DNA from: Cryomorpha ignava
GTDB lineage: Bacteria; Bacteroidota; Bacteroidia; Flavobacteriales_D; Cryomorphaceae
DNA length: 64,000 nucleotides
Assembly (NCBI RefSeq): GCF_010686655.1
Contig: NZ_JAAGVY010000004.1
Coordinates: 1 to 64,000 of the forward strand
Reading direction: 5' to 3'
Shown: positions 15,048 through 63,302 of the stretch, piece after piece
How the letters are laid out: each line of letters begins with the position of its first letter
Numbering within the stretch: the first letter of the stretch is position 1
Notes under the pieces: generated by a model
Seen by the model: the letters and a program-made list of their open reading frames with translations, nothing else
What the model was told of the DNA's origin: nothing
Databases searched by the model: none
Translations under genes and position numbers: made by a program

Positions 15048-17843
15048 CTAATCACTTATCGAAACATCTACTCGGCGTGCATTCGAGCTGAATTTATCTG
15101 CAGATTCCAGCACACCACTTCCACTAACTTCGATTCTATCTGCTGCCACACCTTCGGCAATTAAATAATCCATAACCGATTTCGCTCTTTCCTTAGATAA
15201 TTTTAAATTATAATCTGCATTTCCGCTGTTATCGGTATAACCGGTGAGAAAAACTTTCAGAGTTTTATCATTTTTCAAATCGGCAACGACGGGATCGAGC
15301 TTTTTTAGTTCACCGGCATCCAGCAGCGTTTTATTTAAACCAAAGTTGCAAACCACAGGATAATTTCCGATCAACACTATTGGGTTTGCTTCCACATCCT
15401 GTTGAGCCGAAGATTTGTCTTCTATAATGGTTGAATTGGCTCTAATTTCGTCTTCATCTGATCTTACAGAAGGCTCCAAAATACCATCTGCGAATTCCGC
15501 TCTACTCAAGCTATCTGCACTTAATGAATCCGAAAGGCCAAGCAAATCTTTTTGCATTCTCAAAGAATCAGAATTTAGCACTGTGCCATCTCCAGAAGCC
15601 GCCCCTACCGAGTCGGTTCCGGTTGAGTCGGCATTAAAATACATTCCAATAGGTGGATCAGGAGTATAATTAGTATCAGTCTGGGCGGGAATAGTATCAG
15701 TAATACCATATTGCTTTTTCAATTCCGTCAGTTCCTGTTCCAAGCTGTCAAGCTTCAGTTGGGCTGCATTGCTTTCGTAGTAAACAGTGTCAGGTTTCTG
15801 ATTGTTGCCACTCGCAGCTGTAGCCCCCAGCGCCGTTCCGGCAGCACCAGCAGCAATCATTTTTCCTGCATCACTGTTTCTATTCTCCTTGCGCAATCTT
15901 TCAATTTCTCGTTGATTATCCCTTATTTGCTCGTTTTGCCTTTCTAATAAATCGCTTTGTCTATCCAGACTTTTCTGGTACTCTGCACTGTTATCAGTGT
16001 TCTGGGTTTCAGATACCTTATTGGCCTTTTGATCATCAGCTTTTTCTACTTCAACAGGCTTTTCTTTTTTCAATTTCTCAACAGGCTTATCATTTACAAC
16101 GTACAAGGTGTCCACACGCGATGGAGCTGTTTTTGGTTGAAGTGCTTTCGCGGATGTATCTGCTTTTTGAACGGACTTCTCCATGTACACCGTATCTACA
16201 CGTGTTGGAACCGCCTTAGGTTTTAATGCTTTGGCAGCTGTATCGGCCTTTTGAACGGGCTTCTCCATGTACACCGTATCTACACGTGAAGGTACCGCCT
16301 TAGGTTGCAGTACTTTCGCTGCTGTATCAGCCTTTTGCTCAGACTTCCCCATATATACAGTATCAACAGGCGTAGGCACCGACTTAGGTTTTAATGCTTT
16401 GGCAGCTGTATCTGCTTTTTGAACGGACTTCTCCATGTACACCGTATCTACACGTGAAGGTACCGCCTTAGGTTGCAGTACTTTCGCTGCTGTATCGGCC
16501 TTTTGAACGGGCTTCTCCATATATACAGTATCAACAGGCGTAGGCACCGACTTAGGTTTTAATGCTTTGGCAGCTGTATCGGCCTTTTGAACGGGCTTCT
16601 CCATGTACACCGTATCTACACGTGCAGAAACCGCCCTACTTTGAAGCACTTTCGCTGCTGTATCAGCCTTTTGCTCATTCAAAATCGGTTTTTCATTATT
16701 TACAGTATCTACACGCATCGAATCAGTTTTTGTTTCTACCGCTTTTGCAGATGAGTCAGCTAATTGCTTATTTCCGTTTGTCTTTTCAGTATGAGCGGTA
16801 TCAACAGCAGATTCTACCGTTTTTTGTCCACTTAATGTATCTGCCGATATTATCGAAATGGTATCGCCATCTGTCATATAAATAGTATCGCGAAGCGATT
16901 TCTCTACCCTACCAATATCCAAAGTATCAGCCTTCGCCAGCGAAGTATCCGCAATAGCTTTGGGTGCTTGCCTATCCAATAAGGTTGTATCTGCCCTTGT
17001 TGTGGTGGTATCTACCAGCTCTCGTCTTTTATACAGACTATCAAAATGCATAAAAATAAGTAAAGAGTCGGCCCGAGAAAGTTCCGTACGGACTGGATTC
17101 GAATCATCCGGTGGTTCCGGAAAGCGCTCTTCTTTTAGCTGACTATTGTATATGGAATCATTCGCTATCCAAATATTATCATCTTTTCTTTCAATTTTAT
17201 TCATTTTGCTTCCAAAAGGAATACCGTCGTAAGGCACGAAAACGGGAGCCACATAATTGCTCTTTCTGCTTCCAAAATGATACGAAAGGCCAACTTTCCA
17301 TATATTATATCGTTTGTTTTTAGCTATATCACCTTCAGTCACGCTCGATTTTGTTCCCAATATCTCTACTGCAATATCGGCACTAACTCTGTCTCCAAAA
17401 CGAAGTTTAAATCCATTTTCAAAACCAAAAGCTACATCAGCCGATTTTCCGTTTATACTCTCAATAGTTGAGTACCGATCCATATAGCCTGCTTCTAACC
17501 TGTGAAATATAGATATTGCCGATCGCTGACTAAAAAGATATCCATTATCCCAATGGTATGCCAAACTTAAAAAGCCACCAGTAACATTGTTCTGTGAAGC
17601 TCTATCTATCTCTAATTGAGCCAAATGAAGCCCAAAGGTAAATGAGTTCCCCAATCGTTTTTCTACTCTAAGGCCATAGGCGAAAGAGTTTACGCCTTCG
17701 GGTACTTCCACATCATTATTCAGCGTAAGTAAACCGGCATACGGACTAATTTGCCAATTATAAACATCGCGCTGCGCCAAACTTATCAGCGGACACAGCA
17801 TGGAAAGAACCAGTACAAAATAGAATATTTTTATTGTTTTCAA
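15048..17843 (-). CDS. OmpA-family protein with N-terminal beta-barrel and repeat-rich centre
   Basis: 931 residues. After a signal peptide ending at S-L-A-Q (about residue 24) comes a beta-barrel-like domain (to about residue 200), then a long Asp/Thr/Lys/Pro-rich region. Residues about 385-580 hold 28-residue tandem repeats around VDTVYMEKPVQKADTAAK, with alternating ALKPKSVPTP and VLQPKAVPSR spacers. A coiled-coil stretch (about 610-660) follows. The last ~100 residues are an OmpA domain (FLTGYTDNSGNADYNLKLSKERA), which binds peptidoglycan. The protein probably ties the outer membrane to the cell wall across a flexible spacer. It lies 40 bases after the upstream secreted-protein gene and is likely in one operon with it. 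Confidence 0.85.
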   Translation of the reverse strand: MKTIKIFYFVLVLSMLCPLISLAQRDVYNWQISPYAGLLTLNNDVEVPEGVNSFAYGLRVEKRLGNSFTFGLHLAQLEIDRASQNNVTGGFLSLAYHWDNGYLFSQRSAISIFHRLEAGYMDRYSTIESINGKSADVAFGFENGFKLRFGDRVSADIAVEILGTKSSVTEGDIAKNKRYNIWKVGLSYHFGSRKSNYVAPVFVPYDGIPFGSKMNKIERKDDNIWIANDSIYNSQLKEERFPEPPDDSNPVRTELSRADSLLIFMHFDSLYKRRELVDTTTTRADTTLLDRQAPKAIADTSLAKADTLDIGRVEKSLRDTIYMTDGDTISIISADTLSGQKTVESAVDTAHTEKTNGNKQLADSSAKAVETKTDSMRVDTVNNEKPILNEQKADTAAKVLQSRAVSARVDTVYMEKPVQKADTAAKALKPKSVPTPVDTVYMEKPVQKADTAAKVLQPKAVPSRVDTVYMEKSVQKADTAAKALKPKSVPTPVDTVYMGKSEQKADTAAKVLQPKAVPSRVDTVYMEKPVQKADTAAKALKPKAVPTRVDTVYMEKSVQKADTSAKALQPKTAPSRVDTLYVVNDKPVEKLKKEKPVEVEKADDQKANKVSETQNTDNSAEYQKSLDRQSDLLERQNEQIRDNQREIERLRKENRNSDAGKMIAAGAAGTALGATAASGNNQKPDTVYYESNAAQLKLDSLEQELTELKKQYGITDTIPAQTDTNYTPDPPIGMYFNADSTGTDSVGAASGDGTVLNSDSLRMQKDLLGLSDSLSADSLSRAEFADGILEPSVRSDEDEIRANSTIIEDKSSAQQDVEANPIVLIGNYPVVCNFGLNKTLLDAGELKKLDPVVADLKNDKTLKVFLTGYTDNSGNADYNLKLSKERAKSVMDYLIAEGVAADRIEVSGSGVLESADKFSSNARRVDVSISD
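16090..16695 (-). repeat. 84-bp tandem repeats with a 168-bp higher-order unit inside the OmpA-type gene
   Basis: The coding DNA repeats every 84 bases (28 codons). Neighbouring units alternate between two sequence types, so near-identical copies recur every 168 bases. Words such as CCATGTACACCGTATCTACA recur unchanged. Confidence 0.85.
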
Positions 17844-55910: not shown

Positions 55911-55984
55911 ATAAATCATTCTTAAATTAGTGCTTTCAACAAGTGTAGATGAATCCTTTTTATGCAAATCAATTTTAAATACGT
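55911..55984 (+). repeat. 74-bp direct repeat, upstream copy (duplicated gene start)
   Basis: This stretch is identical over all 74 bases to 56177-56250. It carries the 5' flank, the ATG and the first seven codons of the DUF2147 gene. In this copy the frame runs into the hairpin element and stops at 56032-56034 after 24 codons. Confidence 0.95.
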
Positions 55985-56176
55985 ACTGCTCCGCTGGGTA
56001 TCTACCCTCCGGCCATTAATTTCAAGTAAATATTGATAACCGCTGCTTTAAAATGTTCAATCTATGGTTTATAGATGTTTTCCGCAGGGTAGATACCGCT
56101 GCGGAGCGAACACGACTAAACATGTTGTATATCAACACTTGATACAACTCTGTACTGTTATATTAAAGGGTATCCA
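55985..56176. mobile_element. 192-bp hairpin element between the direct repeats (MITE-like, unproven)
   Basis: Inverted arms at 55988-56008 (GCTCCGCTGGGTATCTACCC..) and 56086-56107 match over about 20 bases except a 2-3 base change. Smaller hairpins lie at 56060-56076 (ATCTAT/ATAGAT) and 56124-56149 (GTTGTAT/ATACAAC). It carries no gene. The flanking 74-bp direct repeats are far longer than the target duplications of known transposons. Confidence 0.5.
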
Positions 56177-56250
56177 ATAAATCATTCTTAAATTAGTGCT
56201 TTCAACAAGTGTAGATGAATCCTTTTTATGCAAATCAATTTTAAATACGT
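56177..56250 (+). repeat. 74-bp direct repeat, downstream copy (intact gene start)
   Basis: It is identical to 55911-55984. This copy continues into the functional DUF2147 reading frame. Confidence 0.95.
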
Positions 56251-56659
56251 CCTCTTCTGTTCTACCAGTATTTTGCTTTCACTTACTGCGCTATCGCAGG
56301 ATGCCAATGATATACTCGGCACCTGGATGACACAAGAAGGAAAGGGCGAAATAGAAATTTATCGAAAACAGGGTACTGATTTTTTCTACGGAAAAATTGT
56401 ATGGTTGAAAGATCCTAAAGATGAAAATGGAAAACCAATAAAAGATGCAAAGGGTACGCCGGTGCTTAACCTGGTAAACTTAAAAGATTTTGTTTTTGAT
56501 GATGGTGAATGGGTTGACGGAACTATTTACGACCCCGAAAGTGGTGATACCTATTATTGTACCATTGAAATGGAAAATTACGACAAGCTAAAAGTTCGCG
56601 GAAGCATTGACCCTATGGGCTGGATAGGGAAAACGAAATATTGGGATAGGGTCAAATAA
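56228..56659 (+). CDS. DUF2147 family secreted protein
   Basis: 143 residues with a signal peptide cleaved near A-L-S-Q (about residue 24). The DUF2147 domain shows ILGTWMTQEGKGEIEIYRK, FYGKIVWLKDP, G..WVDGTIYDPESGDTYYC and the closing GSIDPMGWIGKTKYW. The family is a lipocalin-like secreted barrel of unknown ligand. The first seven codons and the upstream flank are duplicated 266 bases upstream. The nearest terminator faces the other way. Confidence 0.92.
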   Translation: MQINFKYVLFCSTSILLSLTALSQDANDILGTWMTQEGKGEIEIYRKQGTDFFYGKIVWLKDPKDENGKPIKDAKGTPVLNLVNLKDFVFDDGEWVDGTIYDPESGDTYYCTIEMENYDKLKVRGSIDPMGWIGKTKYWDRVK

Positions 56660-61243: not shown

Positions 61244-62380
61244 GTGACACACTTGCGCGGTGAAACCCGACAGATTAATCATTATTATCCTTATGGTCTT
61301 TCTATTTCCGGATTGGGCAACAGTTCTGATGAATATTTGAATAAATATACCAGTAAAGAATTACAAACCGGAGAGTTTGAGCCTGCTGTTTCTACCGGGT
61401 TGGAAATGTTTGACTTTCATGCTCGGTTTTATGATCCGCAATTGGGGAGATGGTTTACGCCAGACCCGGCCGAGCAGTTCCATAACCCGTATTTGGCTAT
61501 GGGGAGGACGAAGCGTGAAGAATCGCTCCGGGGGAGCGATTTAGCTTCGGGCCAGCCTGCAAGGGAAGCGGTGATGTGTGTAGACCCTGATGGGGAGTTT
61601 GTTCTTGGAATTGGCAGAGGGTTTCTTGATGCAGTTTTTAGTGAAGGTTTGGAGCTATGGAATGCAGACCAAGATTATGTGCGTGATGCTTGGCGTGAAG
61701 CCGACCCAACCTTGAAAGGCACTGCTGGTAATAATTCGGTACGGACTTGGTGGGGATTATTTCAAGGCGACGGAAAGCAGATTCTAAGTCGTTTTACTTG
61801 GGAGTTGCCCCAAACAATTTTAGGCTACAATTCTGCGCAGTTGGCTAATACCTTGGGAAATGTAGAAAGTGTTGAATATTATGATGGTGCGACGGTAGTT
61901 TCAGGAAATAATAAAAACTTGGTGTGGAATCTGGGAGGTCAAGCGGTCACCATGGGATCATATATAATAGGTGGGTCAAAATTAGAGGCATCTACTGATA
62001 ACGATTTACTAAGACATGAATATGGACATTATTTGCAAAGCCAAGAAGTAGGCCCGATTTATATTACGAAATTCGGAATCCCTAGTTTACTATCCATAGA
62101 CGGATCTCATGATTATCATCCAGTAGAGCAAGATGCTAATATTCGTGGCTTGAAATATTTTCGCAAAAAAGATGGCAGTAATCCTTGGAATACTACGAGC
62201 TATCCGATTCTTGGATTTGATGATACAACGCCATACAGTTCAGCCAACAACCAACAAGCCTTAAAAGCCGGTCGAATACGGACTACGGGGTGGGACTATT
62301 TGCCAGGCTGGCGTTTTCTTCCTCAAACGATTTATTACACAATAAAGTATAGACAAGAACAAAAGGAAAATACACCATGA
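61244..62380 (+). CDS. orphan Rhs C-terminal tip with putative zinc-peptidase toxin domain
   Basis: 378 residues from GTG, no signal peptide. Residues about 10-125 are the Rhs core-associated repeat (NHYYPYGLSISG, KELQTGEFE, FHARFYDPQLGRWFTPDPAEQ, VDPDGEF). The long N-terminal Rhs shell is missing, since a TGA lies two codons upstream. The normal N-N-P step before VDPDGE is replaced by ~22 residues encoded by a palindromic insertion. The variable C-terminal domain contains LLRHEYGHYLQSQEVGP with His258-Glu259..His262, a zincin-type motif shared by Rhs tips in Bacteroidetes. It overlaps the next gene (ATGA). As a cassette it may be silent until recombined onto a full Rhs. Confidence 0.8.
   Translation: MTHLRGETRQINHYYPYGLSISGLGNSSDEYLNKYTSKELQTGEFEPAVSTGLEMFDFHARFYDPQLGRWFTPDPAEQFHNPYLAMGRTKREESLRGSDLASGQPAREAVMCVDPDGEFVLGIGRGFLDAVFSEGLELWNADQDYVRDAWREADPTLKGTAGNNSVRTWWGLFQGDGKQILSRFTWELPQTILGYNSAQLANTLGNVESVEYYDGATVVSGNNKNLVWNLGGQAVTMGSYIIGGSKLEASTDNDLLRHEYGHYLQSQEVGPIYITKFGIPSLLSIDGSHDYHPVEQDANIRGLKYFRKKDGSNPWNTTSYPILGFDDTTPYSSANNQQALKAGRIRTTGWDYLPGWRFLPQTIYYTIKYRQEQKENTP
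61509..61549. repeat. palindromic element inserted in frame in Rhs copy 1
   Basis: AATCGCTCC GGG GGAGCGATT (61521-61541) is enclosed by CGAAGC and GCTTCG. It lies within the ~66 bases that replace the short N-N-P turn of normal Rhs proteins and keeps the frame open. An identical copy lies at 62950-62990. Confidence 0.75.
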
Positions 62381-62832
62381 GAACCTATATAACTGCAGTA
62401 CTTATATTTGGCTGGCTTTTATTCACAGCCAACTCTTGTAAAGAAGATGATAACGGTTGCCCTGCGTCATTTATCAATAAGCAAGACGATAGACTTCAAG
62501 TGAGAAACAATCATGCTTTTGGAATTGTCCATCAATTTATTTTCCACTATCCTGATACCAATATTTATAATTCAGATGTTATTGCAGATGATTCCGATAA
62601 TAACAAAACACTAGCGTCCGGTGAATCGGGTCGAATTTCGTACGGAAGATGTTGGGAAAATATTTTTTCACGAGAAATCGATTCAGATACCCTCCTAATT
62701 TTTTCCTACAGTTTAGATACTCTCAATTTAAAAGGATGGGATTATATCGTTTCAAATTACGCTGTGTTAGATCGTAAAACCTATAGTTTGCAAGATTTAC
62801 AGAACAATAATTGGCTGATCGAATTGCCGTGA
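62377..62832 (+). CDS. putative lipoprotein, candidate immunity protein of the Rhs tip
   Basis: 151 residues. The signal ends F-T-A-N-S-Cys (Cys21), a lipobox. The mature part is acidic (EDDNGC, DSDVIADDSDNN) with a C-terminal YSLQDLQNNNWLIELP. No family is recognised. The ATG overlaps the stop of the Rhs tip, the usual place for an immunity gene; a lipoprotein immunity protein would suit a toxin acting in the periplasm. The same frame region at its end overlaps the start of the second Rhs fragment. Confidence 0.6.
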   Translation: MRTYITAVLIFGWLLFTANSCKEDDNGCPASFINKQDDRLQVRNNHAFGIVHQFIFHYPDTNIYNSDVIADDSDNNKTLASGESGRISYGRCWENIFSREIDSDTLLIFSYSLDTLNLKGWDYIVSNYAVLDRKTYSLQDLQNNNWLIELP

Positions 62833-63302
62833 CAACAGGATGGGAAGTGTTGGATCTTGACGCGCGGTTTTACGATCCGCAGTTAGGTAAATGGTTCACG
62901 CCAGACCCGGCAGAGCAGTTTGCTAATCCGTATTTGGCTATGGGGAGGACGAAGCGTGAAGAATCGCTCCGGGGGAGCGATTTAGCTTCGGGCCAGCCTG
63001 CAAGGGAAGCGGTGATGTATGTAGACCCTGATGGGGAGTTTGTTCTTGGAATTGGCAGAGGGTTTCTTGATACAGTTTTTAGTGGGGGATTAGAATTTTG
63101 TAACGCTGACCAAGCCTATGTTGGGAAAGCTTGGCGGGAAGCTGTAGTTATCGCCACAAACTACAATTTTTTTCACCTTTGACGATACAAAAGTAACTAT
63201 CCTTCTTTTGTTGTCGAACCGGATGAATACAGAAAACCTCTAATCAAAGAAACAAATAAGGACGGACACCATATTTTAGTGGGCGCTCTAACTCGGTTTT
63301 GA
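62832..63302 (+). pseudogene. second, truncated Rhs tip with in-frame stop
   Basis: From GTG at 62832 the frame encodes TTGWEVLDLDARFYDPQLGKW and the same Rhs core tail as copy 1, including the palindromic insert, then a different short C-terminal part. It meets TGA at 63180-63182. The same frame then stays open for SNYPSFVVEPDEYRKPLIKE and further to a second stop at 63300-63302, so the toxin part has a nonsense change or deletion. Bases 62928-63084 differ from 61487-61643 at only about two positions. Confidence 0.7.
62950..62990. repeat. palindromic element in frame in Rhs copy 2
   Basis: Same hairpin as at 61509-61549 (core 62962-62982), in the same codon position of the second Rhs fragment. 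Confidence 0.75.

Follow-up and report, generated by a model that had tools for sequence, protein, structure and literature searches.

The start of a DUF2147 gene in Cryomorpha ignava is duplicated perfectly over 74 bp, and the two copies enclose a 192-nt insert that consists mostly of a cut-down copy of a dispersed, RAYT-associated repeat. The locus lies in the 64,000-nt stretch of DNA analysed here, referred to below as the window. We give about an even chance to the explanation that a one-off repair of a DNA break inserted the fragment and duplicated the 74 bp in one step. The event is ordinary to mildly unusual, and it is a single event.

Results

Duplication of the DUF2147 gene start

The two copies of the direct repeat, at positions 55911-55984 (copy 1) and 56177-56250 (copy 2) of the forward strand, were identical at 74 of 74 positions, with a start-to-start spacing of 266 and a spacer of 192 nt. 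When one mismatch was allowed, the direct repeat extended to 77 nt (55911-55987 and 56177-56253). Chance origin of the 74-bp duplication is excluded. The genome that was searched comprises 5.0 Mb in 149 contigs, and the locus is interior to a contig of 159 kb. No third site matching the 5' half of the 74-bp repeat within 3 mismatches was found in the genome-wide search.

Copy 2 comprises 51 bp of 5' flank, the ATG, seven complete codons and two bases of the next, and it runs on into an intact gene (56228-56659, forward strand). The 143-aa product matched Pfam DUF2147 (E 1e-27) with its frame intact, and its N-terminus is hydrophobic, like a signal peptide. The preliminary description of identical 74-bp repeats carrying the 5' flank, the ATG and the first seven codons of a DUF2147 gene was thus correct. 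Copy 1, the upstream copy of the same flank, ATG and first seven codons, shares its start with copy 2 and then enters the insert, where its frame (55962-56036, forward strand) is cut off by a TGA after 24 codons (MQINFKYVLLRWVSTLRPLISSKY, then stop). The left-hand neighbour of the locus is a minus-strand gene for a CBS-domain protein. Among the genomes of relatives that were compared, all of other genera, the closest orthologue of the DUF2147 gene showed 57% protein identity.

Composition of the insert

The spacer is made up of two parts. Positions 55985-56147 (163 of the 192 bases, forward strand) hold one copy of a REP-doublet repeat that is dispersed in the genome and RAYT-associated; we call it REPIN-like. 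The remaining 29 bp (56148-56176) are a filler whose sole match within 3 mismatches in the whole genome is itself. The repeat is built of two GC-rich palindromes that face each other across an AT-rich spacer. The left REP-like palindrome, CCGCTGGGTATCTACCCTCCGG, occupies 55991-56012 and belongs to a class that also flanks a RAYT gene on contig C30; the right one, CCGCAGGGTAGATACCGCTGCGG, occupies 56082-56104 and had 14 pattern matches in the 2.45 Mb sampled. A small AT-rich hairpin, TTGTATATCAACACTTGATACAA, forms the right edge of the repeat fragment at 56125-56147. All of these features were read on the forward strand.

The predicted RNA fold of 55985-56147 had an energy of -51.1 kcal/mol (z = -4.8), and none of 200 shuffled sequences was as stable; folded as DNA, positions 55985-56112 gave z = -4.3. 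The long inverted repeat that had been described in the spacer is thus real, and it consists of the two palindromes facing each other. An Rfam search of the region returned no score near the gathering threshold. Both inspection and a repeat search of the insert (55985-56176) found no matching terminal inverted repeats at its ends, which read ACTGCTCC... and TGGATACC..., respectively. We asked whether an 8-base match, AATACGTC, between the insertion point and the end of the element could reflect a target preference. This reading was rejected because the match lacks significance, as 12% of random 19-bp windows have such a match.

The repeat family across the genome

The search for the spacer elsewhere in the genome succeeded for most of its length (163 bp). 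Three further full-length copies, on C20, C14 and C27, were 94-95% identical to the window copy, and two copies cut at contig ends, on C15 and C70, showed the same identity over the length that matched in the genome-wide search. On C46 lies a diverged tandem pair that is 74-79% identical to the window copy. The palindromes are also found, alone or in arrays, on several further contigs. On C48 (1-20000; locus L089) dense palindrome arrays are mixed with other repeats, at spacings of about 102, 223, 426 and 484 bp. No copy of the repeat was found in 60 related genomes, and the only match listed outside this genome was one 30-bp palindrome in a genome of the same family.

The other copies reach about 60 bp further to the left and 14 bp further to the right than the window copy. 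The left extension of about 60 bp (GTCACATCGAG...CTTAGAAA, also GTCACATCGAGATCTGCTTC...CTTAGAAA) is common to the three complete copies and that on C70, and the right extension, TACGTCAATGATAG, to the complete copies and that on C15; it is largely kept in the C46 copy of 79% identity. Both family extensions are missing from the window copy, although its interior is 95% identical. This comparison of sequences shows it to be a truncated fragment, not a whole element. It carries about 4 private changes in 163 bp, retains four older states since lost from the recent copies, and split off earlier than the ancestor shared by the three near-identical copies.

Flanking direct repeats, whether exact (down to 11 bp) or inexact, were absent at the other copies. 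This indicated that the 74-bp duplication is a property of the single event rather than of the family's normal movement. It also disposed of the suggestion that other gene starts in this genome might be duplicated around the repeat, as none was found.

Association with a RAYT-like gene

On C30, an open reading frame with a Y1_Tnp match (L058:1417-1995) is preceded by the palindrome in forward orientation and followed closely by the palindrome in reverse orientation. Around 61693-61893 of that contig, a RAYT-like Y1 transposase gene thus lies between palindromes of the GCTCCGCTGGGCATGCGCCCTGCGG type in inverted orientation. Related Y1 genes on C80, C49 and C83 had flanks with no close match to the core palindrome. 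RAYT genes with flanking REPs are a described layout (PMC2817692), and REP doublets have been named REPINs (PMC3116915).

On inspection, the palindromes lacked the GTAG/GTGG foot, and their foot is instead GCTCCGC / GCGGAGC. We therefore named the repeat only REPIN-like, since the GTAG foot of canonical REPs is missing. A CGTC tag at one end marks an alternative class of REPs (PMC3733652). CGTC or GACG was seen beside some of the palindromes and in the right end of the complete copies, inconsistently.

Similar arrangements in the genome

Isolated direct repeats were scanned for in 2.45 Mb, about half of the genome with the window included. In this sample, a tRNA-Cys gene on C1 was the only other place where an isolated, long and perfect repeat encloses a short insert of outside origin. 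There, at about 288928-289213 (L088:8928-9213), a 126-bp perfect direct repeat surrounds a 34-bp filler; the repeat starts inside the T-loop of the tRNA (L088:9196-9267, minus strand) and takes in its 3' end and terminator. The 34-bp filler ends in AAAATAAACACTTGTGAAAA on the tRNA strand, and the filler is shared with a tRNA-Glu locus on C11 near 116300 (L158, around 1330-1650), where the 3' half of the tRNA and the terminator are repeated imperfectly. The string TTGAACACC..AAAATAAACACTTGTGAAAA sits just before the second tRNA-Glu copy, and is also present on C48 and C88 with no tRNA repeat. Because the two tRNA genes have in common both the position that was hit and the filler, these loci may reflect a site-specific process, and for that reason the tRNA-Cys locus was not counted in favour of break repair.

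Other candidates for a window-like arrangement were rejected. The repeats of L153, L145 and L148 belong to dispersed or partly tandem families, and in L187 two copies of another repeat flank a membrane acyltransferase-like gene. The window itself holds further repeats of other kinds: tandem repeats of 84 bp (28 codons if coding), 77-85% alike, in an array at 16101-16677, two short-repeat arrays with a period of 14 bp (resembling AATTACGAAGGACG and CCTATTGCAAATTG) at 1823-1920 and 2136-2219, and a 300-bp direct repeat, 86% identical and 1441 apart, at 61384-61683 and 62825-63124.

Discussion

Origin of the duplication

The preliminary description held that a 74-bp duplication does not fit ordinary MITE transposition and suggests a different mechanism of insertion or copying, and our results agree that one is needed. 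The explanation that we put at about even chances is capture of a stray fragment at a filled-in break. A nick in each strand, the two about 74 bp apart and close to the start of the gene, would have opened a break with long single-stranded ends, and fill-in of both ends would have copied the 74 bp onto each side. Stray DNA, consisting of the truncated 163-bp REPIN-like repeat and 29 bp, would then have been joined between the filled ends, probably by way of the Ku/LigD end-joining pathway. Copy 2 would have remained as the working gene start and copy 1 as a dead start of 24 codons. The nicks, the fill-in, the capture and the single-step timing are the parts of this account that we infer.

Break repair is favoured because the insert is not a whole element and includes 29 bp unique in the genome, because the other copies of the repeat have no flanking direct repeats, and because no IS1634 transposase was found. 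The 74-bp duplication directly abuts an insert with broken ends, the truncated repeat on the left and the unique 29 bp on the right. The machinery is also at hand: a gene for Ku (PF02735) adjoins one for LigD_N (PF13298, inside an 840-codon open frame) on C22, and with the two side by side the genome should be able to join ends without homology. Against break repair, 74 nt is long for a filled-in overhang, and the literature that was searched held no example of a bacterial filled-in break with a captured insert of such size. The exact source of the insert, with its 29 bp, is absent from the assembly, which breaks at these repeats. A further point against break repair is that the repeat has about 4 private changes in 163 bp, yet the two 74-bp copies have 0 between them. 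Equal age would predict about 3 differences between the 74-bp copies, and the chance of none is by our estimate roughly 0.05-0.1. The identity of the 74-bp copies thus weakly favours either a younger duplication or a source copy that had already diverged.

A younger duplication is what would be expected if the repeat and the 29 bp already lay upstream and template switching, for instance during a replication stall at the strong hairpin, later placed a second 74-bp stretch of gene start beyond them. This order of events, the main rival, is less probable. It ends in the same sequence as one-step capture, it has a strong hairpin to call on (z = -4.8 as RNA and -4.3 as DNA), and it suits an old-branching repeat copy that carries changes of its own between identical 74-bp copies. 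However, copying would have to jump back 266 bp and then forward again to land exactly at the edge of the repeat, and the account is less parsimonious in that the repeat must end precisely between two perfect copies. None of the relatives compared shows the intermediate. Sequence alone would not separate a one-step from a two-step origin. True transposition with a long target-site duplication, either of an IS1634-type element or by RAYT-driven movement of the palindrome pair, is unlikely. It finds some encouragement in the RAYT gene between the same palindromes, inverted, on C30, and in IS1549 and IS1634, which have been reported with direct repeats of 8-514 bp (PMC2266710); no mechanism for these long duplications had been proposed as of 2008 (PMC2266710). 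The earlier statement that target duplications span 2-10 bp was therefore too narrow as a rule. A search with the NF033559 profile found no IS1634-family transposase in the genome, and the controls matched. The 192-bp insert also lacks matching inverted termini, the other copies of the repeat lack long duplications, and enzymes of the IS200/IS605 type make no larger target duplications (PMC2817692). It is likewise improbable that a dedicated process in this lineage inserts short repeats with long target duplications, of tens to more than 100 bp. Candidate examples of such a process would be the window locus (74 bp around 192 bp), the tRNA-Cys locus on C1 (126 bp around 34 bp) and, imperfectly, the tRNA-Glu locus on C11, and the tRNA-Cys/tRNA-Glu pair is the strongest reason to keep a lineage-specific long-duplication mechanism in play.

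An assembly artefact is very unlikely. The assembly is a draft of 149 contigs, and C15 and C70 end inside copies of the REPIN-like repeat; however, the locus is interior to its 159-kb contig and contains the unique 29-bp filler, and the private changes in the window copy are not expected from a mis-join of known sequences. Least probable of all is the reversible switch that had been proposed for the locus, in which the gene would be turned on or off as the insert is lost or gained. A perfect 74-bp repeat at a spacing of 266 bp can recombine and delete the insert, and the hairpin could enter the mRNA leader if a promoter in copy 1 were active. Behind copy 2, however, the gene is whole and has 51 bp of flank to itself. 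Recombination between the repeats can only delete the insert, with nothing that would restore it, a search between the copies found neither a recombinase site nor an invertible unit, and the arrangement around the repeat occurs at no other gene. A reversible switch is therefore not supported.

If break repair is the correct explanation, the locus would be a clean natural bacterial case in which a gene start was duplicated and a fragment inserted while the gene was left intact, and an event of a kind from which new leaders or promoters can arise. Should long duplications instead be made by the repeat itself, the locus would represent a new mode of insertion for RAYT-associated repeats.

Comparison with known systems

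Tandem duplications arise by end joining in mammalian cells when the two strands are nicked 46 nt apart (PMC5730883), which is the geometry proposed for the window locus and speaks for break repair. Break repair as proposed here shares with that system the duplication of the stretch between staggered nicks, with no need for homology. It differs in scale and setting: the mammalian overhangs are 46 nt long, whereas here, in a bacterium, 74 bp are duplicated around a 192-bp insert by a mechanism that we only infer. With the IS1634/IS1549 family the window locus shares a long and perfect direct repeat around an insert, but the transposase of the family was not found in the genome, and the window insert has no terminal inverted repeats.

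The repeat itself most resembles REPINs and BIMEs with their RAYT genes. Shared features are the palindromes facing each other around a spacer, the strong hairpin, the dispersed copies, and a Y1-type (IS200-like) transposase gene in the genome with the same palindromes inverted around it. REPIN movement is not known to produce 74-bp duplications. The repeat also differs from REPINs in its low copy number and in the longer unit, of about 236 bp, in which its recent copies have spread, and the window copy stands further apart, being truncated and bounded by the 74-bp duplication.
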